Both the position numbers and the translations under genes were made by a program. From Tachypleus tridentatus (taxonomy: Eukaryota; Arthropoda; Merostomata; Xiphosura; Limulidae), in contig NC_134834.1 of NCBI RefSeq assembly GCF_004210375.1, forward strand, positions 142,571,009 through 142,635,008: 64,000 bases of DNA, read 5' to 3'. The notes beneath the pieces were generated by a model. The model did no database searches. It worked only from the letters and a program-made list of their open reading frames with translations, and had not been told where the DNA came from. How positions within the stretch are numbered: the first letter of the stretch is position 1; every line of letters begins with the position of its first letter. Positions 8,801 to 39,504 of the stretch are shown in pieces.

Positions 8801-9823
8801 CATATAGAAAACAAGTAAAAAGAATAACGTAGAACGGAAGGCCTGTTGGACATGCATATAGAAAACAAGTAACAAGAATAACGTAGAACGGAAGGCCTGT
8901 TGGACATGCATATAGAAAACAAGTAACAAGAATAACGTAGAACGGAAGGCCTATTGGACACACATACAGAAAACAAGTAACAAGAATAACGTAGAACAGA
9001 AGGCCTGTTGGACATGCACATAGAAAACAAGTAACAAGTATAACGTAGAACGGAAGGCCTGTTGGACATGCATATAGAAAACAAGTAACAAGAATAACGT
9101 AGAACGGAAGGCCTGTTGGACATGCATATAGAAAACAAGTAACAAGAATAACGTAGAACGGAAGGCCTATTGGACACACATACAGAAAACAAGTAACAAG
9201 AATAACGTAGAACAGAAGGCCTGTTGGACATGCACATAGAAAACAAGTAACAAGTATAACGTAGAACGGAAGGCCTGTTGGACATGCATATAGAAAACAA
9301 GTAACAAGAATAACGTAGAACGGAAGGCCTGTTGGACATGCATATAGAAAACAAGTAACAAGAATAACGTAGAACGGAAGGCCTGTTGGACATGCATATA
9401 GAAAACAAGTAACAAGAATAACGTAGAACAGAAGGCCTGTTGGACATGCATATAGAAAACAAGTAACAAGAATAACGTAAAACGGAAGGCCTGTTGGACA
9501 TGCATATAGAAAACAAGTAACAAGAATAACGTAGAACGGAAGGTTTATTGGACACACATACAGAAAACAAGTAACAAGAATAACGTAGAACGGAAGGCCT
9601 GTTGGACATGCATATAGAAAACAAGTAACAAGAATAACGTAGAATGGAAGGCCTGTTGGACATGCATATAGAAAACAAGTAACAAGAATAACGTAGAACG
9701 GAAGGCCTATTGGACACACATACAGAAAACAAGTAACAAGAATAACATTGAACAGAAGGCCTGTTGGACATGCATATAGAAAACAATAACAAGAATAACA
9801 TTGAATAGAAGGGCTTTTGGACA
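8801..9823. repeat. 54-bp minisatellite, about 19 units, with four-unit higher-order pattern
   Basis: The unit is GAAAACAAGTAACAAGAATA, ACGTAGAACGGAAGGCCTGT, TGGACATGCATATA (54 bp). Most units differ by only a few bases. Three linker variants (ATGCATATAG, ACACATACAG, ATGCACATAG) occur in the order A-A-B-C twice near 8850-9290, giving a 216-bp higher-order period. Because 54 is divisible by three and the unit lacks stops, the minus strand is open in two frames for about 380 and 413 codons, encoding 18-residue Cys-rich hydrophobic repeats. No evidence supports expression, so it is annotated as satellite DNA. Confidence 0.95.
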
Positions 9824-21754: not shown

Positions 21755-21996
21755 CAGCTTATTCGAAACATACCATACTTCATACTGACAGTTATTAAAT
21801 AGCATAATTCATAACGACAACTATTCTATATCATATTTTATAATGACAGCTAGTAAATATCATGCTTCATAATGACAGCTATTAAATAGCGTACTTCATA
21901 ACGACAACTATTCTATATCATATTTTATAATGACAGCTTGTAAATATCATATTTCATACTGACAGCTCTTAAATAGCGTACTTTATAATGGCAGCT
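21755..21996. repeat. About 30-bp tandem repeat, 7-8 copies, with alternating unit types
   Basis: Units of the form CATACTTCATAATGACAGCT plus ATTAAATAGC alternate with ATAACGACAACTATTCTATA plus TCATATTTT. The same pair order occurs twice, giving a roughly 90-bp higher-order period. Confidence 0.75.
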
Positions 21997-22499
21997 ATTA
22001 CAACGAACTTATGCTAAAAAATAGCACCAAACAAAAGTGTGAAAATAAACCCCCCTACTAATACGGTTGCGATTGCACTTGTATTATTTTCACAGAATAA
22101 TAGAATATTTTAACTTCAAATCGATGTTGTTGTTAGTATGAGCTTTCCGTCTACTAGATGCTTTGTTGTCTTAGTCGTGTATGTATTCCGACAGGAAAAA
22201 AAAAATAAATGTCAGAATTTATAGACCAAATATATAACACTTCTAAATTATATACGACAAATAACCCTACACATTTAGCTGTCTTCACGTAGTTGTTTCT
22301 TTAAAATCAAAATAGTGAATTTAAACACGCCAAGTCTTTCAGAACTTGCATAATGACTGTAAGCAAAATAGTTGTCTATTTATTATTAATCTGAATAAAA
22401 AGAGAATCGTGTACCGAAACGTACAAAAAATTACCGACTAGAAGAGTTGATGGTTAAAAAACCGCTAATGTAACCCTCTAAATAAAAGTTGTTCATTTC
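21997..22499. other. AT-rich sequence, nothing recognised
   Basis: No supported feature seen. Confidence 0.5.
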
Positions 22500-22655
22500 A
22501 ACTACCAGGGCATAGTCACGTCTATTTTCTGCTTTAGAGATATCGTGGTCGCTGTCAAATTAACTATATAAAATGTATCAATAAGCAAAATGAATAACAA
22601 TTTGAAGTCGTGGATATTAAATTGACTATTAAGTAGTAACAATGATCTATTACTT

Positions 22656-22850
22656 GTCAGTTTGAGTGACTCTGTCAATTTAAGCAATTAGTCAGTTTGA
22701 CTACTTCCTAGTCCGAATGACCATGTCCCAGTTTGTTTGACCACTTCCCAGTCACCCTGACTAGTTCATAGTAGCAGTGCTATGCTGGTCTTCAGGACTA
22801 CTTTGTGGTCAGGAAGACCAACACCATAGTCAGCATTAACTCATGAATTG
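22656..22850. repeat. Left subterminal repeat array of the transposon (20-bp period)
   Basis: Four consecutive 20-bp units start exactly at 22691, 22711, 22731 and 22751. Their starts are GTCAGTTTGAC, GTCCGAATGAC, GTTTGTTTGAC and GTCACCCTGAC, each followed by YACTTCCCA-like sequence. The ideal unit starts with the dyad GTCA-N3-TGAC. More GTCA/TGAC words and a GGTC...GACC hairpin continue to about 22850. This is the expected layout of transposase-binding subterminal sites. Confidence 0.7.
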
Positions 22851-23159
22851 ACACTCTAGATGTTTCTTATAGCATTAAGGCGCAGTTCAAGCAGATGACT
22901 GTACACATGTATTTTGTTCTATAAATACAACTATTGAAACGTGACCAGGACTAAACTTTGCAAGAATTTATTTATTTACTTTTATTTGGGACGGGGGAAT
23001 AAATTTCTTTCACACAAAATAAATCCTACCTAAATAAATCTTATTTATCGATCACGACTATTTTTTCACTGTTTTATTTGACAATTATGTTTTTATATTG
23101 TTGTGTGCATATGTTGGAATATTCGAATATGAAATACAATAATCAATACATTTATTATT

Positions 23160-23560
23160 TCAATCCACAACGATCTAAGTTACGACTGAAATAAACTTTT
23201 CCCACGTGGTTAACACTCGCGCTGACGCTACACGACCGGGAAATGCATCCGATTCGTCTAGTGGTCCGAGCGCAAATCGAGTACAAATGGAAAGCAGCTA
23301 CATTAGGCGCGAGCGAGACTATCTCTTTTCCAGTGGAGTGTACCAGGTCGAGTTTATCTGAAGGCTGCAGGTGGTATTTGTGGAGAGAGGTTAATCATTC
23401 CTCAAGGTGGTCGAGGGGGGATTTAGGGGCTCACATACAACAATACATACACAGGAGGGGAGTGAAGACGGCACGATCCACTCCTTAGCGGCAGCCGAAG
23501 GTAGGGATGACACTATAAACCCAAAGGGGGCGGGGTGGAGAAATCACACACAGTAATATT
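23160..23560. promoter_or_regulatory. GC/CpG-richer island, possible element promoter
   Basis: Markedly richer in G+C and CpG than its surroundings (ACACGACCGGG, GGCGCGAGCGAG, GGGGGCGGGG near 23526). It lies between the left subterminal array and the transposase. An 81-codon open frame (23243-23488) has no recognisable domain. It could be the transposon's 5' regulatory region or an unrelated CpG island. Confidence 0.35.
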
Positions 23561-24958
23561 TTATCGCACATTGCAGAATTACATATGACGTTTATAGAAT
23601 TTGTAATAACCGAAACTTGTACTGACATTGCACAATTGCCATGCAACCGTGCAGATGACGGAAAGAAGAAATCCAGGTAAATATTAATCGTTTATGTCAT
23701 ATTTTCCTATACTATGTTTCAATAAAACAATATAAGAATAGGTATGTTTAACTTTCTAGATTAGCTGAAGTGAATCCATCCGTATTTTTTTGTACAACTC
23801 GTTATGTGTAAACAAGGATGGTTGCCCGTTACATTGTGTAGGTCTGTACTACTGTAGTGTAGTAGTAGAAGAGAAGGAATATTTATATTTAGGTAATGCT
23901 TTGAAGCAAGTATGAAATCGAAAACATTTCCCAGTCTTGACATCACAAATGCACATATTTGGTATCTTGAATGCATATCCTGTGGTAGAATCAAAAGTCC
24001 GCAATGATCCATGTTGCTGCTCTGTTAAATTTAGCGCCAACTCCACCGCTGCTAAAAAGATTTGTTACGGCTACCGTTACACAGATGAAAGTTGTATACT
24101 CATTGAAAGGGACCTCGTCTGTTATTATTTTATAGACCTTTGATGATGAAAGATGACATATGATAATACGTAAATAATAAATCCTTATTTTTAATACATC
24201 AGCAGAGCTACACATTCTAAAGCGTACACACTTTATGCGATGTGTGTATTATGGCGGGATCCACTAACACAGCCAACAATGGAGTTACAAATGGGGACGG
24301 CCAGACAAATCGTATAAAAACGGCGAAAAAGTGAAACATATATTGTGTTTAATGTGTGTTTCTTTAATTTAATATTACAAACTATCTAAAAATCTCTTTA
24401 GGTACGAAATGTATTTACCTTTTTAAACTCTACTTTGAAATCGAATGGTGCGAGATAGGAGCCAGCGCCAGGCCGTACACTACGAATAGAAGGCCCGTGA
24501 TCCTGCAAAATATTACGCCAACCCCTCTCACTTCTTTGCTCCCAGGGAACTTTCTCAGACTTTAGGTCACTCCCATAATCCCTACCGATAAGAGAAATGT
24601 AGGATCCGGGGGATATTGCATCGAGACATGAGCAACCGAGTTGTGTAGTTAAAATAATAAAAATTGTATACCCTTACGAAAATCGGGGAATACCATGGAT
24701 CACGCATCAGCATGTGTCTGCAGAGATTTCCTTGTGTTCACTCTACAGTCCACAATTTATTTCGGATTTCTGTCCAATTTGGTGAATATGTTAGTTAGGT
24801 TGAGGTCTGGCCATTAAATGTTTTTGGCCACCCCGGGTGGGGGATTGTGGCAAGAATTTGCATTTTGAAGTACGTCTTTATTTGCTAGATTGAGGGAAAG
24901 TCCAAAGATACGCCGTCGGTTTGCGAGCGACCGACATTTGCTAGTCATTATTGTTGAA
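23561..24958. other. Transposon 5' region, unassigned
   Basis: Mixed composition with several overlapping short open frames on both strands (23761-24215), none with a recognised motif. A further GC-richer patch lies at 24440-24640. It may hold 5' noncoding exons or extra cargo of the element, but nothing is supported. Confidence 0.4.
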
Positions 24959-25241
24959 TGGCCTGGCATGGCCAAGCCCGTAAGGCGTGCGACTCGTAAT
25001 CCGAGGGTTGCGGGTTCGCGCCCGCGTCGCGCTAAACATGCTCGCCCTCCCAGCCGTGGGGGTGTATAATGTGACGGTCAATCCCACTATTCGTTGGTAA
25101 AAGAGTAGCCCAAGAGTTGGCGGTGGGTGGTGATGACTAGCTGCCTTCCCTCTAGTCTTACACTGCTAAATTAGGGACGGCTAGCACAGATAGCCCTCGT
25201 GTAGCTTTGTGCGAAATTCCAAAACAAACAAACACAAACAA
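24959..25241 (+). mobile_element. SINE family 1, CpG-rich subfamily, full length with 12-bp target duplication
   Basis: Perfect flanking duplication ATTATTGTTGAA (24947-24958 and 25242-25253). Head with B box GGGTTCGCGCCC and the CpG-rich variants of this subfamily. The tail ends in CAAACAAACACAAACAAA. Its near-intact state implies a relatively recent insertion into the transposon. Confidence 0.96.
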
Positions 25242-25432
25242 ATTATTGTTGAAATTTAACATTAAATTTAGTTAAATAAATGATACACTTTACGTTCCAG
25301 AATGAAAACCCGTGACATTTGGATGCATGTCTTGCATAATATTTATTAATAGACACTGCAAAGTTTGGTAAACTTTGGAGTTAAACATGGTAGAACAATC
25401 AGACGTTTCCAATATTTTCCCATGCATTAAAT

Positions 25433-25719
25433 TATTGTTTCTTTGTTTGTTTGTTTTGGAATTTCGCACAAAGCTACTCGAGGGATATCTGTGCTAGCCG
25501 TCCCTAATTTAGCAGTGTAAGACTAGACGGAAGGCAACTAGTCATCACCACCCACCGCCAACTCTTGGGCTACTCTTTTACCAACGAATAGTGGGATTGA
25601 CCGTGACATTATACACCCCCACGGCTGGGAGGGCGATTATGTTTAGCGCGACGCGGGCGCGAACCCGCGACCCTCTGATTACGAGTCACACGCCTTACGC
25701 GCTTGGCCATGCCAGGCCC
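25433..25719 (-). mobile_element. SINE family 1, CpG-rich subfamily, full length with target duplication
   Basis: Flanked by GCATTAAAT (25424-25432 and 25720-25728). Same CpG-rich subfamily as the copy 200 bp upstream but in opposite orientation. It lies just before the zinc-finger segment of the transposase. Confidence 0.95.
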
Positions 25720-25747
25720 GCATTAAATCATAAGGTTAGGCATTTTA

Positions 25748-28131
25748 GCAAGCTTCTTTCACATTTTTATTTGCTTCATGAGCCTGGATTTGTTGTCCCA
25801 TGTGGGGTTAGTGGATGTGAAAGACAATTCAAAAGCACCAAATGTTTGAAAAGACATAAATAAAAAGCATGGATGGTTTGCTACTACCAGTATGCAGGAT
25901 AATGAAGCTGGTGGTGAATGTGCCGAGTACTTTATGGAACAGAGGTATAAAACCTCTGACAGTGATGAGGCAGTTGATGGTAATCAGGAGATGGTTGTCA
26001 CAGACAAGCGAAGAATCTTAGTTAAAACAATTCTGTGCTGCGTAAAAATGAAAAAAAAAAATTACTTATAAAACTACAAGTTATTTTTTTTTTAATTTGT
26101 CCTGTTCTATTATGGCTGCCAAAGGTGATAAACATTTATTCCAAACCATAAAAAGAACATTGATCAGTGAGGGGGTTCCTAGAAATAGTATACGAGTAGT
26201 TACAGTGATGGAAGCTTGTAAGAAAAAAAGTCTTGACTTTGATTGAAAATTTCACTGACCACAATAATTTCCAGTCTTACATTGAAGATAATTTGTTATT
26301 TGTAAAACCTGTTGAGTATGACCTGGGAATTGCTGGTGATGTGAAACATGACACAATGCAGTATGTTTCTTTATTAGATACTCTGAAGTGTTTGCTTAAA
26401 CATGATGATATTTTTAGCCAGGTTGTTTATCCTCGCCAGTCAGCTGATGACTGTCTTAGAGATGTCGTTGATGGTGAACATTTCAAAAGCCATCCATTCT
26501 GGCAAGAAACTCCCCTTGCCCTTCAAATCATTCTCTATTTTCATGAGTTTACAGCTGTGAACCAGGCTAGAATACGAGCTCCTGCTTACAAATGTGCTGC
26601 TTTCTACTATTAGTTAGGCAATATTGAACCTGCTTTGAGATATCAGCTTCATTATATATTCTTAGCAATCTTGGTGAAGAGCCAAAAGGTAAAAAAACAT
26701 GGGGTAAATACAGTGATGAGACCTTTGATTGAAGAACTATCTGTTCTTGAAAACATTGGTATTGACATTGTCAGACCAGAGGGAACATTCAAATTCAGAG
26801 GTGCGCCTCTTTTTGTTGTTGCAGATAATTTGGGAAGCCATGCTATTGAAGGGTTTCTTGAATCATTTTCTGCTCTCAGATCATGTAGATTCTGCATGGT
26901 AACTCAGGATAATTTAAGAAAGTTGATTGATATTTCAAACTGTTCAGAGAGATCTATTGTATCCTATAATTACCAAGTTGCAATGGTCGAAACTGAACAG
27001 ACTTTGTCAAGTACATATGTGGTTAAAAAAGATCGCCCCCTGAACGTTTTGCAGCAATTTCATGTAGAAAATGCTCTACCACCTGATATATTACATGACG
27101 TTTTTGAATCTGGTTTGATGTCAGAAATTTTATAGTTTTACTCATAGATCAGTATGTCTTATCTGGATACTTCAGCCTTCAGTACCTTGCAGGCAGAGTG
27201 AAGGAGTTCCATTACAAAGGAACTGATAAAATCAATAGGTCTGAGTTTGTTATTTTGAGAGGGTCTGGACACATTAAACAAAAAGCTGTGCAAGTTTGGT
27301 GTCTTTTAAGATTATTTCCATTACTGGTGGGTGATGCAATGCCAGAATTCAACAACAAGTGGGGTGTTCTGTTGGCTCTGCTGGATATGGTAGAATTGAT
27401 AATGTGTCCATCAATGTCATATGCAAGCATTGAATTCTTAAATGATGTGATACAACAGTTCCATTCTCTTTATGAAAAAGAATTTCCAAATAGAACTCTC
27501 AAGCCAAAGGGACATTTTACTTTGCATTACCCAGAGATGACCCGCAGATTTGGTCCACTGAAGAATGTGTGGACCATGGGATTTGAAGCCAAACATAGTT
27601 TTTTGTTGATGTTGCAAGACGTACCTAAAACAGGAGGAATCTAGCCAAAACAATGGCAATGAGACACCAGTATAAACTCTGTTCACATTTGGAAAGCAAT
27701 GGATTTCTTGGAATAGATGCCTTTTAACCTGACTAATTCTGTCAGATTGCCTGTGAATTCACTCGAAGAAGAGCGAAACCTTGTCAGTGCATTTGTTGGG
27801 GGAAGGCGATTTTGTCACTAAAGCGTCAGGTTGTACAGTCAACTGCCTCACATACAACACAGGGACAATGGTTGTCAGTAGCTACGAATTCGACAGTCTT
27901 CAATTTTCTTCAGTGATCTGTTGCTTTGTTCTTTGGGGAAAACCTTTTTTGTATTGTCAAAGATACCAAACTGTTGATTATCACAGGCATCTTCATGCTT
28001 ACATTGTAGAGCCAATGAGAAGTTATGAACTTCTGAGCATTCCAGATCTTTATGATCATTACCCATTGCCTTGTTATGTGAACAAAGGTGAAAATATGAT
28101 CATCCTACATCACTACATTCGTGGCGACTGA
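25748..28131 (+). pseudogene. CACTA-like transposase pseudogene with N-terminal zinc finger
   Basis: Broken remains of a large transposase. A zinc-finger-like segment (PGFVVPCGVSGCERQFKSTK, C-x4-C then CLKRHK) lies at about 25785-25862. A highly decayed stretch follows. The core runs from 26233 (FTDHNNFQSYIEDNLLFVKP; DCLRDVVDGEHFKSHPFWQE; LALQIILYFHEFTAVN), through 26635-27135 (VADNLGSHAIEGFLESFSAL; SCRFCMVTQDNL; NALPPDILHDVFESG), to 27198-27644. The C-terminal part is at 27781-28131 (VKGEH-like VNKGENMIILHHY). These blocks match in order transposase-derived proteins I recall from fish and invertebrate genomes, including the ADNLGSH and LPPDILHD signatures. At least three stops or frameshifts separate the blocks (near 26612, 27133 and 27642), so no intact enzyme is encoded. 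Confidence 0.8.
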
Positions 28132-28469
28132 ATGATGACAAATTTTAAACAGAACTTTGTAATCAGTTGTAAATTTTAACCTATTTTATGCAACTTGGTG
28201 TGTCCCTTTTCAGAGAACTTTTGTCATATTAATATGTATCATGCATATTTGCACCAAAATCACCACTATCATCACCATCTTTGAGGTCAGACTACTTATA
28301 TTTGCTTTCACCTTTTAAAGGTTACTATTTGTTAGGGAAAAACCAAATTACTTATTTAGCTGATTTATACCAATCCTGCTGATGTTAAATTTATGGAAAT
28401 GTAATATATCTTTTTGGTGTTTTGTAGTTTGCATGTGTATACATATAAATCATTTTTGATCAGTACCAT

Positions 28470-28740
28470 ACTTTTAGATTCCAGAGAGATGGTTTTATCC
28501 TACCACATTACCTACAATGAAAAACAATTGTCATTGGATGATCTGGGATTGTTGCCCAGTAAGATTTCTGACAACTTAAATCTGGATGTAGATGCTACCA
28601 ACTTGTCAGCTTAAGTGTATGTGGAAGACTGGCACGACTGGGTGGATATTCAATGGTCTGACATTCCAAAACCAGGAGCAAAGTTGCGCGTTTTTCTGGT
28701 TTCTAATGTTGGGGCCTCTGACGGAGAGATAGTTGTTGTG
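28470..28740 (+). pseudogene. Second transposon gene, exon 1 (N-terminal domain)
   Basis: The open stretch reads VLSYHITYNEKQLSLDDLGL and DNLNLDVDATNLSA, then, after one in-frame stop, DWHDWVDIQWSDIPKPGAKL and VSNVGASDGEIVVV. A strong splice donor follows (GTTGTTGTG|GTGAGT at 28740/28741). It is the first recognisable part of a SAMD3-like protein encoded downstream of the transposase on the same strand. The exon start is uncertain. Confidence 0.5.
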
Positions 28741-28939
28741 GTGAGTAGTTTGTAAGAATACGCAACCCATTTAAATTTGAGTGATTATAATAATTTATGT
28801 AGTCATTGGAAATCATCCTGCGGAAACTTTATTCCGAAGAAAAGAAGTAAAATTGTTCAATATACATTATTCAACACAGCACAATTACTGTTATTTTTTA
28901 TTACAAATTTTGACCCGTTAAATATGTATTTTTGAGCAG

Positions 28940-29028
28940 AATCCACCGAACACTGAAGTGCCTTCAAGCAAGCAGAGTGCATCTTCACCCGGTCCCAGTA
29001 CTGAACGTATTCAGTCCATATAATCATG
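28940..29028 (+). pseudogene. Second transposon gene, small exon (linker)
   Basis: Bounded by an acceptor (TTTTTGAGCAG|AATCC) and a possible donor (CATG|GTAGGA). It encodes a Ser/Pro-rich linker (NPPNTEVPSSKQSASSPGPS), typical of the variable region between domains in this family. A stop (TAA) lies near its end. Confidence 0.4.
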
Positions 29029-29148
29029 GTAGGATATGTCCTAATGAATGTCAAATAGATCTTTAATTTGTTGGAGAAATAGTTTTATCTTTCACTTGAG
29101 ACAATGTGTATCATTTCTGATTACAAACGTGTAATTATATCTCTTCAG

Positions 29149-29296
29149 ATGTCTTCATCTGTATTTGACAGCCTGCCCAACCTCTATTTTCCAGATATCC
29201 CACTTCAAGGCAGTATGACTAAGTAGTGGATGAAATATTTAAGCGCTACCCTCAGCTGTCAAATGCCCCAAATCTAATACCCCAAGGTGTTCCTAA
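29149..29296 (+). pseudogene. Second transposon gene, exon with VDEIFKRYPQL block
   Basis: An acceptor (ATCTCTTCAG|ATGTC) precedes SSSVFDSLPNLYFPDIPLQG. After a one-base shift comes VVDEIFKRYPQLSNAPNLIP. The DEIFKRYPQL block is continued by ELWRMRLRQKF in the next exon, as in SAMD3-like relatives. A frameshift near 29220 marks decay. The donor is unclear (CCAAGGTGTTCC). Confidence 0.5.
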
Positions 29297-29912
29297 AGTA
29301 CTATCTACATGCGCATTATGTTATGTTTGTTGTGAAATATATTCTCATCACAAATATATTCTTTTATCTATACATTTGACTTTGAGTCCAAAAGCCAATG
29401 AGCTCAATAAAATTCGTCCTAAAGTGTATAACAGGAATCACCATATCACCACTTGTAAGGGTGTAAATGTATTCTGCAAAAAATATGTTCATTAGTTACA
29501 AAATATATTAAATGGCATTTTTTGTGTTGCATAATATTAGTGAAGAAATTAGTGAAAATTTTGTGGGAAGTTGTATATTTTTTTAAAATGCACACAAGTA
29601 CATATATCTACTAAGGAGGGCTGTGGAAAATGCTATTTTGATACTTTGGAATATTTGTTTTGTTTGCATACGACGTAACGTGACTCAACTAATGAAACTC
29701 AACTAATTTGATGCTAAACAGAATACATTGTCAAGACGAACTCGTACAACTGATTTAGTAACAAGTATATGTATGACTTTCAGTTTCTTAGATTAAACCT
29801 GAAAATGCCAAAAGTGGTTTAAAAGAAATATTGTGCAAAATAATTATAGTTATACCAGGGCAGTTTTGTTATTCATTCTCAATAGAACTAATTCTGTCAA
29901 TTCTAATTGCAG
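29297..29912. other. Presumed intron within the transposon's second gene
   Basis: AT-rich, no coding block. It ends with a pyrimidine-containing acceptor (TTCTAATTGCAG). A short open frame running into it is read-through. Confidence 0.4.
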
Positions 29913-30768
29913 GAGCTGTGGAGGATGAGACTTCGTCAAAAATTCCAGAATAATAGAAAGCGGAAGGATTCATCATTGTCTATAGTCCAAGAAAGAAAGA
30001 AAAAGACGAAAACTGCAACAGATGAAACCCCATTTCCAATCCACATCTCAGAACAGAGGCTATATGGATTAAAGCAATACTTGTGTGAAAAGCCAGTTGG
30101 GGAGGATAAAACTTCCACCGAAAAACTCAAGGAATGGATGAAAACTCGTCTGCATTGCAGAAAAAAGGGTGATCTTTGTAAAGTGGACTTTCTTATGGGC
30201 AAAACTCTGCATGATCGTATGAAACTGGTCATTGACAACACTCCTGTTAATGAACTTGTAGAGCATTATCCTTTCCTTGTGGTACCACCAGCACAGCTAT
30301 TGAATGAATTTAAGCGGCTAGGAAATGATGCAGAAAAAAGGAATGTCCAACTTTGTCTCTCAATATAAGGACTCCGTAAATTCTCACCTGCAGCACAGAA
30401 ACATATCACCAGGAAATAATTCATTGCTAGCATTTCTTATGAAACAGTCCTTACACATGCCTGATGTTACATCTAGTATTGCCATTCTTGGTATCCCTTT
30501 TCTTCTAAAAGAAAGTGAAAGTATCATGGTGGGAACTGAAGTTAGGGAACCTGCTGAGAGTGGTATATACATTCAATGTGGTTCGGTTCCTCAGTTTTAT
30601 GACCAGAAATTCAAACTATATGTTGATGACATTGATATTTGTGCCACTGAAGATTTTGTGGAAGCATTCACTATGTATATAGGGAGTTTTTATATCTTCA
30701 ACTTTGCATTTCCAACAAAACTCAAGAAAACTTTCAACTTTGTTGAAATGGTTGTTCTGAAGCTCTGA
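29913..30768 (+). pseudogene. Second transposon gene, large 3' exon (SAMD3-like C-terminal domain)
   Basis: Starts after the acceptor at 29910-29912 with ELWRMRLRQKFQNNRKRKDS, then a Lys-rich basic segment, a central block (LKEWMKTRLHCRKKGDLCKV; LVEHYPFLVVPPAQLLNEFK) and a C-terminal block (ITSSIAILGIPFLL-like TSSIAILGIPFLLKESESIM; FVEAFTMYIGSFYIFNFAFP). The frame shifts by one base in an A-rich run near 30335-30345. The protein ends at TGA 30766-30768. Related C-terminal regions occur in fish and invertebrate proteins annotated as SAMD3-like; their role is unknown. Placement directly 3' of a transposase suggests an accessory gene of the element. Confidence 0.65.
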
Positions 30769-31149
30769 GTCCAGGAAAATTACCAAATCTGAAAAAGATG
30801 CAGACAGATGTGTTCTTCAGTTGCTTGATCTCTTGAATGTCAAAAAACATAGCAGCGGGAAATATGTCAAAACATCCCAAAGGTAAAGGAAGAGGAAAGT
30901 GTTCAAAGCCATAAGGTTATATTAGATCTAGTAATAGTAACTTGTATTTGATCCAGGGTGAATTTTCAATAACCAAGTGTAAAGTTCAGTTGTTTATTTT
31001 CAAATTGTTGCTGCATTTTGAATTTTATTTTGGTACATGTATATTGATCTACACTTGTTCAGCTTAAAATAAAAATGATGCTGCTAAAATGCATTTTATA
31101 TTTTTTCAGGATGGTAGCTGGTTACTGGGACTTAGGTTGAATCATCAGA
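30769..31149. other. 3' noncoding part of the transposon
   Basis: AT-rich, with possible polyadenylation words (AATAAAAATG at 31067-31076). No coding block. Confidence 0.4.
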
Positions 31150-31690
31150 TGGCTGCGGGGTTGACTGCTCAGTGACGGTTCTGCTGACCACAACTGACTA
31201 AAGATAGTCTCTTTGCCTTACAGTGACATTGCAGAGGTGGTCCTGGCCGGTTCAACATGACTTATCTTCAATGGTCGTTGGATAGTCATAATGACAACAG
31301 TCCGTTGTTAATGGATGGTCATAATGACAACCACTCCTTGGACGAATAGGGTCACACTGACTATGTCATGACTACTCTGTAGTGGTTTGCAGGTAGGCAG
31401 TGAGACTATTGTCAGGTAGTCAGCATTGGTCAGAATGACTACCTAACGAAAGTCATAACGACTATCATAGTGCAGTCAAATTTATTACCTGCCAGGTATC
31501 CCTGCTACCATTATCTGACTATTTCCCGACTACACAATAGTAAAAATGACTAATATTTAATAGTCACATCAGGTAGTCATCGATTTTAGCGACTACTTGG
31601 AGAGTCTTTTTGGCACCGCTTGACTATCTGATTTACTATTCAAAAGTCGTCGCCTTGACTAGTTCTTATTTTGAGTGAATTTTCTGAACG
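31150..31690. repeat. Right subterminal repeat array of the transposon
   Basis: About 500 bp dense in TAGTCA/TGACTA words. Perfect or near-perfect dyads GTCA-N3-TGAC lie at 31285 and 31318 (both GTCATAATGAC), 31351 (GTCACACTGAC) and 31429 (GTCAGAATGAC). A one-base variant lies at 31452 (GTCATAACGAC). Spacing is less regular than on the left (33 bp between the first three). Confidence 0.7.
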
Positions 31691-38339: not shown

Positions 38340-39010
38340 AGTCTATTCTTTAACGAAGCCTGCAAGGTAGCCTTGGAACTCTACATCCGAGATCCTAACC
38401 CATCAATAGACATTCCCAGCAACCAATTAGCAACCCTCATAGAATTCACCACGATGAAAATAAACTTCATGTTCAACAACCACAACTATATACAAACAAA
38501 TGACCTAAGCATGGGCCACCCAGTATCACCAGTTCCTGCTAATATTTTTATGGCACAAGTTGAAACACAAGCAATTAACACAGCATTACATCCACCACTG
38601 TACTGGTACAGATATGTAGACGACACGATTCACATCTACAGAATACACACTTAATTTTTTCAATCACATTAACTCTATACATCCCAACATTTAACTTCAC
38701 ATGTGAACAGGAAGAAAGCAATCAAATATCATTTTTTAACCTCAAAATTACAAGAACCGATACACAATTTAAAACAGAAATCCACCGAAAAATCACCCAT
38801 ACTGGACTATACATTTCTTGGGACTCAGCAAATGAAACAAAACAAAATCTCAACATACTAAGAAACCAAATAAACACAGCCATAAAACTATGCTCACCAG
38901 ATAAAATTAATGATGATTTAGACAAAATTAAACAATACTTCATCAACATCCATAAGTTTCCTCCACAAACCGTAGAAAAAAATTATACGCACACATTTAG
39001 ACAGAAAGCA
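38340..39010 (+). pseudogene. Penelope-like reverse transcriptase, C-terminal part (broken)
   Basis: The first frame (to 38654) reads LATLIEFTTMKINFMFNNHN, then LSMGHPVSPVPANIFMAQVE (the MGxPxSPxxANxFM block of this RT group). YWYRYVDDTIHIY follows, with the catalytic YVDD at 38613-38624. The reading then shifts: TCEQEESNQISFFNLKITRT, EIHRKITHTGLYISWDSANE and NTAIKLCSPDKINDDLDKIK correspond to the thumb/connector region (FFNLKI and HRKITHTGLY blocks). At least one frameshift near 38640-38700 and a missing N-terminus make it nonfunctional. Confidence 0.88.
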
Positions 39011-39504
39011 AAATCAAGTAATAAAAGTAAATATATCTCACGAATTAAAAAGTCACGAAACCGTGTGCTGCTGCATACCATATATTCCCGACATCAGCAG
39101 AAAAATAACAAACATTTGGCAAAAACTAGTAACAAAATGACATTCCAGTTAATACCAAATTTATTCAAAAACCAGGTTCAAAACTCAGCTCTATACTGTG
39201 TAAAGACTACACTGACAAACACCACTCCAACATTATTTATAAAATACAATGTGATAACTGCCACGACTTCTATATTGGAGAAACAAGTAGAAAAATGGAA
39301 ACCAGATTCAAAAAACACAAAAAGTCACCTTCACACGTTTTCGAACACTGCAAATCAAATAAACACAACATAACCATAGAAAACACTCAAATACTAAATA
39401 AAGAAACAAATATAAACAAACGCAAAATTAAAGAAGCCTTACTTATACAACAGCTCAAGTTCAAAATAAACCAATACAAAGGAGCACCTTTATACCTACA
39501 TTAA
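39011..39504 (+). pseudogene. GIY-YIG endonuclease domain of the Penelope-like element
   Basis: In the reading that crosses 39236-39504 the segment IIYKIQCDNCHDFYIGETSR is followed by KMETRFKKHKKSPSHVFEHC, HNITIENTQILNKETNINKR and KIKEALLIQQLKFKINQYKG. It shows the xYKIQC (GIY side), FYIGET (YIG side), R...H and C-terminal E-A features of Penelope-type endonucleases. The terminal part is open to a stop at 39502-39504. Upstream, the frame shifts once (about 39230). Confidence 0.85.

Follow-up and report, generated by a model that had tools for sequence, protein, structure and literature searches.

In the plant transposon En/Spm, subterminal repeats are bound by the protein TnpA and insertion duplicates 3 bp of the target. 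CACTA-related elements with 2-bp target duplications were described in animals in 2006, with SmTRC1 and a 9.2-kb Aedes aegypti element as examples (PMC1636069, in the portion available), and the CMCT clade is characterized by C(2)C and H(3-4)H motifs between the second D and the E of the transposase, by 5'-CA..TG-3' termini and by target duplications of 2 to 5 bp (accessible part of PMC12730594). Here we analyze a 64-kb stretch of Tachypleus tridentatus DNA (C10:142571009-142635008 of a 2.17-Gb genome in 205 contigs), hereafter the window, whose numbering is used for all coordinates given without a contig. The block at 22474-31677 is a single degenerate copy of a repeated CACTA-type cut-and-paste DNA transposon with two genes, a transposase and, as the original prediction had it, a second gene downstream on the same strand. 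As a whole, the locus is best explained as a degenerate two-gene transposon of this type, with a proposed two-protein complex acting on its subterminal palindromes, a reading to which we assign a probability of roughly 0.8.

The limits of the element were mapped by aligning ten second-gene regions and nine left regions, fetched from other copies, to the window. On the right, alignments stop exactly at 31677 in five of ten copies and 1-20 bases further out in the other five; on the left, five of nine regions begin to align at 22466-22473, and the remaining four fetched regions stop short of the end. The block first proposed at 22500-31690 is thereby confirmed, with its limits slightly corrected. 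Genome-wide searches with 23-base end patterns, allowing two mismatches at most, returned 114 left-end matches versus 1 for a control and 115 right-end matches versus 0, and the family comprises dozens of copies of an element of about 9 kb. Family termini read CACTC...GAGTG, with CCCTC at the left end of the window copy; the left terminus (CACTCTAAATAAAAGTTG) and the right terminus in inward reading (CACTCAAAATAAGAACTAG) form an imperfect terminal repeat; from the window copy alone, terminal repeats were not detected (score 35, below the shuffle maximum of 46). Both ends were found for 52 elements; in the 26 of them whose flanks were read (20 picked, 6 already available), a 2-bp target duplication is present in 18 and absent in 8. 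Shuffled pairing of flanks yielded a mean of 3.2 such duplications, and none of 5,000 shuffles reached 18. The best copies match the window at a mean DNA identity of 90.6% over 31 alignments longer than 800 bp, a figure that covers best matches only and so understates the divergence of the family. At one place (L070, C10:109786321-109786798), the left-terminal 65 bp of one copy are repeated eight times head to tail; a terminus can thus multiply on its own. The element and its ends are as follows.

22472-22473, no strand: target duplication AA, 2 bp, left flank (AA on both sides of the window copy)
22474-31677, + strand: whole element, 9204 bp (alignments to copies, shared termini, genome-wide end patterns)
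22474-22502, + strand: left terminal inverted repeat, imperfect, consensus CACTCTAAATAAAAGTTGTTCATTTCGAC (shared termini of copies)
31649-31677, - strand: right terminal inverted repeat, imperfect, inward reading CACTCAAAATAAGAACTAGTCAAGGCGAC (shared termini of copies)
31678-31679, no strand: target duplication AA, 2 bp, right flank (AA on both sides of the window copy)

Across the genome, the transposon regularly includes the second gene. A transposase search (best 150 of 242 candidates) gave 119 places after hand merging, and a search with the main exon of the second gene (best 150 of 244) gave 116; these place counts are lower bounds in which an absent partner may be unlisted, and some places, such as those around C13:82.1-82.6 Mb, are probably segmental duplicates. 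The second gene lies within 12 kb of the transposase at 93 of 107 listed places, downstream on the same strand in all 93 and at a distance of 3.2-3.95 kb in 72 of these pairs. It was not found at the other 14, and 23 second-gene places have no listed transposase. Gene content was also counted from the ends, for 100 listed of the 114 left ends and 100 listed of the 115 right ends; eight tandem left ends at C10:109786 were counted as one, giving 93 left ends for analysis. Among these, 54 have both genes, 11 the transposase only, 8 the second gene only and 20 neither, while the 100 right ends have both genes in 68 cases, the second gene only in 16, the transposase only in 5 and neither in 11. Rather than falling between the two genes, right ends sit beyond the second gene, which is found upstream of 84 of the 100 listed (at 1.49-2.16 kb in 82 of the 84), and the proposal of a single element enclosing both genes held up in this respect. 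Co-occurrence of the two genes is the rule, in 42 of the 52 two-ended elements among the ends listed, though it is not invariable: six elements hold the second gene only (5.0-5.9 kb), two the transposase only (5.4 and 7.6 kb) and two neither (1.76 and 3.45 kb). These ten look like internal-deletion derivatives, and a matching target duplication is present in five of the nine whose flanks were read. The six with only the second gene (C2:82128152, C4:92512837, C7:71152400, C2:64021464, C2:56451347 and C6:109033054) are of similar lengths, have a matching target duplication in three of five with flanks read and are perhaps an amplified derivative.

Both genes could be traced piecewise in the window copy. 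For the transposase, comparison was made with other copies and with L007 (QNXQ01000188.1), a gene for a CACTA-type transposase with a zinc finger, from a contig deposited under an Aquifex metagenome-assembled genome. The pieces, together with two nested insertions that we take to be short interspersed elements (SINEs), are listed below.

24959-25242, + strand: SINE-like insertion nested in the element and foreign to it (11 of 14 displayed copies span the site and lack it)
25433-25725, - strand: second nested SINE-like insertion, in opposite orientation (comparison with other copies)
25726-25860, + strand: N-terminal part of the transposase, with a C2H2-type zinc finger (frame; tblastn matches in other copies; Pfam matches sub-threshold)
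26209-26613, + strand: region of the first catalytic aspartate, here D to H (open frame, L007 match, copy comparison)
26614-27135, + strand: second catalytic aspartate (ADNLGSH) and C(2)C motif (Transposase_21 sub-threshold; 45% identity to L007 over 140 residues)
27108-27644, + strand: H(3)H motif and catalytic glutamate (GFEAKH) (38% identity to L007 over 171 residues)
27757-28131, + strand: C-terminal piece of the transposase (open frame; a like product runs on in one frame in copy L034)
28480-28752, + strand: first recognizable exon of the second gene, stop at 28612-28614 (open in copy C10_134, L063)
28940-29020, + strand: probable exon 2 of the second gene, after a GT...AG intron (sequence reading only)
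29193-29300, + strand: probable exon remnant of the second gene, with one stop, adjoining a missing stretch (sequence reading, copy comparison)
29913-30768, + strand: main exon of the second gene, frame change near 30350 (open frame, copies)

The two insertions are 94% complementary to each other. Judging by its residues, the transposase is built around a DDE core and shows the C(2)C and H(3)H pairs that mark the CACTA clade. In the best copies, the catalytic residues are conserved as D (27 of 28), D (24 of 29) and E (23 of 27), the cysteines of C(2)C in 25 and 27 of 29 copies and the histidines of H(3)H in 25 and 26 of 29. The window transposase is broken by one in-frame stop or more (26611-26613), by shifts of frame and by the replacement of the first catalytic D with H; among 28 other readable copies this position is D in 27 and N in one, and H in none. 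Pieces of the window transposase are 36% identical to L007 over 113 residues, 45% over 140 and 38% over 171, and the Pfam family Transposase_21 matches at E 5.6e-4 with 19.6 bits, under its gathering cut-off of 28.6. The N-terminal zinc finger proposed originally is recognizable and recurs in other copies by tblastn, although every Pfam match to it in the window is below cut-off (zf-BED, E 0.0076), as is also the case in L007 and in a divergent second family described below. The L007 contig is probably animal contamination of the metagenome-assembled genome; a search of that one genome for the second gene found none, and the contig stops before the point where it could show. L008, the other of two genome-contig pattern matches, was unrelated by eye, and protein and pattern scans of viral contigs recovered nothing related (six pattern matches judged by eye on translations). 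Copy L012 (1-868) has about eight tandem repeats of 89 bp from the transposase region.

The second gene looks multi-exon from its sequence, as had been proposed, and is broken in the window copy by one frame change and two stops in the exons as read. About 260-270 bp are gone from it at approximately 29101-29105 and are present there in 7 of 10 fetched copies. The window copy is old and broken, and its self-mobility is gone. The label "SAMD3-like" attached to the second protein is putative: neither Pfam searches of its pieces (no match at E<=0.03, no SAM match) nor a PDB sequence search with the piece at 29907-30368 (nothing below E 0.46, no SAM match) supported it.

Both ends of the element carry arrays of palindromes, at the following positions.

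22554-22830, no strand: left array, GTC-N5-GAC at 22691, 22711, 22751, 22788 and 22808 (motif scan and copies)
31160-31660, no strand: right array, GTC-N5-GAC at 31285, 31318, 31351, 31429, 31452 and 31649 (motif scan and copies)

The GTCA-N3-TGAC dyads on which the original prediction was built are real, and their sharper form is the palindrome GTC-N5-GAC, which occurs 12 times in the window, 11 of these inside the arrays (5 left, 6 right); for RGTC-N5-GACY, all eight window sites are inside. This amounts to 11 sites in 1,004 bp of array versus 1 in the 62,996 bp outside, and in 2,000 dinucleotide shuffles of the arrays the mean was 0.23 and the maximum 3. When GTC/GAC spacings of 0-15 were compared within the arrays, N5 gave 11 and the next best, a spacing of 15, gave 3. 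A consensus of five left ends, window included, has eight sites, four of them spaced by exactly 20 bp, and a consensus of 11 right ends has seven sites, three at a 33-bp period, with 5-8 sites in individual left ends and 3-7 in individual right ends. Such periods would point to two and three helical turns. The positions of the arrays match the element boundaries mapped from copies, in agreement with what had been predicted for them. A separate 29-bp tandem array (8 copies, word CATAAYGAC) lies at 21770-22000, about 470 bp outside the left end, and by eye it resembles GTCATAATGAC of the right array.

A divergent family in the same genome occupies 12 places on C11 and C19, with a transposase piece 38-44% identical to that of the window family and a left end that starts with CACTGTAAAAAATAACCG, preceded by TA in most copies displayed. 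At 11 of the 12 places a second gene lies 4.1-4.5 kb downstream, in the same gene order as in the window family, and there is one more second-gene place without a listed transposase. The second proteins of the two families share 26% identity over 134 residues, and a single BLASTP comparison gave E 5e-9 uncorrected and 4e-8 after correction for composition, at 43.1 bits versus at most 23.9 in 100 shuffles; hhalign gave a score of 40.0 (E 6.4e-5, probability 64%) versus at most 21.6 in 30 shuffles. By these alignments, the two second proteins are homologous; the arrangement either predates both families or arose twice. The divergent copies are about 97-99.6% identical over long alignments, with three distinct left flanks among those displayed. 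One stretch of this family (L041:7710-7955) gave us the impression of a SAM-like look, for which sequence searches of Pfam and PDB yielded no support. In another divergent copy (L043, 7057-9721 on the transposase strand) the right part differs, and frames that by eye are reverse-transcriptase-like replace the second gene.

The most economical mechanism for these features would be a two-protein transposition complex on the palindrome arrays, by analogy with En/Spm. The DDE transposase would cut at the CACTC ends, and a dimeric element-encoded protein would bind the palindromes, many of them spaced by whole helix turns, and bring both ends together. The second protein would then be an accessory of the end complex, in the role of TnpA in maize En/Spm, and the reader of the palindromes could be either this protein or the zinc fingers of the transposase. 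The original prediction made the second protein a component of the transposition system and not a host gene; its membership in the element is established by the copies, and the step from "carried" to "needed" is one that we infer. Several observations weigh against this reading of the locus. The pieces of the second protein matched no known DNA-binding family in Pfam, and Transposase_21, sub-threshold in the window, had no match in L007 or in transposase pieces of the divergent family. Divergent copy L041 shows no GTC-N5-GAC in the 10 kb read, so the second protein does not generally go together with the array, unless what it binds differs between families. No right end was found for the divergent family, as the inverted left-end pattern gave 31 matches versus 16 for a control and none fittingly downstream; enclosure of both genes by divergent-family ends is accordingly presumptive, and 10 of the 12 divergent copies lie at C11:0.6-3.7 Mb with shared flanks, implying few independent insertions. 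In the window family itself, the two-ended elements that keep the second gene alone (six), the transposase alone (two) or neither (two) count on the same side, as do the 20 of 93 listed left ends with neither gene listed.

The alternative that survives best is that the second protein is carried but acts outside transposition, in escape from silencing, expression or targeting, and that the transposase zinc fingers read the palindromes; we consider this a real contender, though one with the odds somewhat against it. Such functions have been proposed for the extra proteins of other transposons, including TET/JBP in fungal elements (PMC12730594, as far as its accessible text goes). This role is also in line with the C2H2-type finger stretches of the transposase, all below the Pfam cut-off, with the lack of a recognized DNA-binding domain in the second protein and with the divergent family having the second gene but not the array. 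Nothing speaks directly against it, and persistence of the gene in two families fits either role. It is improbable that the second gene is a host gene captured once and amplified passively with the element. Plant CACTA elements are known to capture genes, and some derivatives here lack the second gene; on the other side, a family with no more than 38-44% identity in its transposase piece has a homologous gene at the corresponding position, and passive capture does not easily predict that two families with clearly different transposases keep the gene in the same position. That two different transposons lie side by side or nested has next to no probability left: nested insertions do occur in the block, as the two SINE-like copies show, but the same order and strand recur in 42 of the 52 two-ended elements and at 93 of the 107 listed transposase places, which refutes this for the window family. 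Equally refuted, and of negligible weight, is the idea that the arrays have nothing to do with the element and reflect a common tandem satellite or chance clustering of the motif, as the TGAC words of the 29-bp array outside the left end might suggest. They are located within the element ends, are found again in other copies (5-8 sites per end in five left ends, 3-7 per end in 11 right ends) and contain more sites than shuffled sequence.

The two-protein complex can be extended, tentatively and with more doubt than confidence, to a whole lineage of animal CACTA-type transposons that would be obligate two-component systems, with the second protein (SAMD3-like by its putative label) as an animal counterpart of TnpA that binds family-specific palindromes. 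Repeated SAMD3-like genes are, we presume, annotated in many animals and perhaps named as host genes by pipelines; if the extension is true, many genes so annotated would be transposon genes, and the element described here offers a transposon origin for this presumed class. With its 20- and 33-bp periods, the palindrome can be used directly as a probe to find the protein that binds it.

Elsewhere in the window, nineteen 54-bp tandem repeats (18 codons) at 8801-9823 leave open frames of 435 and 421 residues on the minus strand, which are probably a repeat effect and not a gene. The open frame at 39133-39504 looks like the GIY-YIG end of a Penelope-type element; Pfam, run on the overlapping frame 38579-39373 only, returned no clear match.

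Compared with described systems, the element sits within the CMCT/CACTA clade: C(2)C and H(3-4)H motifs lie between the second D and the E in most of the 29 best copies, termini are of the CA..TG form, typically CAC..GTG (here CACTC...GAGTG), and the 2-bp target duplication seen in 18 of 26 elements is within the range of 2-5 bp. EnSpm shares the motifs and the CA..TG termini (PMC12730594, available part). A 3-bp duplication, as in EnSpm in the narrow sense, fits only 1 of 26 elements, and the element is accordingly not filed there; the CMCT families described in the same part of that source, which come from fungi, have TET/JBP genes and, in the case of EnSpm, make 3-bp duplications, are likewise unlike it. 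The animal TRC elements (DeMarco 2006) come closer, having an animal host, a CACTA-related transposase, a 2-bp duplication and, in Aedes, a similar size of 9.2 kb, but a CCC core is proposed for their ends, whereas copies of the window family commonly begin with CACTC (CCCTC in the window copy itself); they have a transposase open reading frame and alternative transcripts, one with a second open reading frame, and the accessible portion of that account describes no protein like the second protein here (PMC1636069). Plant En/Spm resembles the element in its CACTA termini and in having two element proteins, TnpA and TnpD, both required for transposition, and differs in that these are spliced from one transcription unit (PMC1636069, same portion). 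Kolobok elements with KolX and other accessory proteins are also DDE transposons with a second element-encoded protein, but they belong to another superfamily and their second proteins differ by name (PMC9587614, in the text available). Searches of openly licensed papers, judged from their listings, turned up no report of this second gene paired with a CACTA-type transposase. Animal CACTA-type elements were known already, as were two-protein DNA transposons; what appears to be new is this second gene in a CACTA-type element. The element is a concrete and testable two-protein candidate for CACTA-type transposition in animals.

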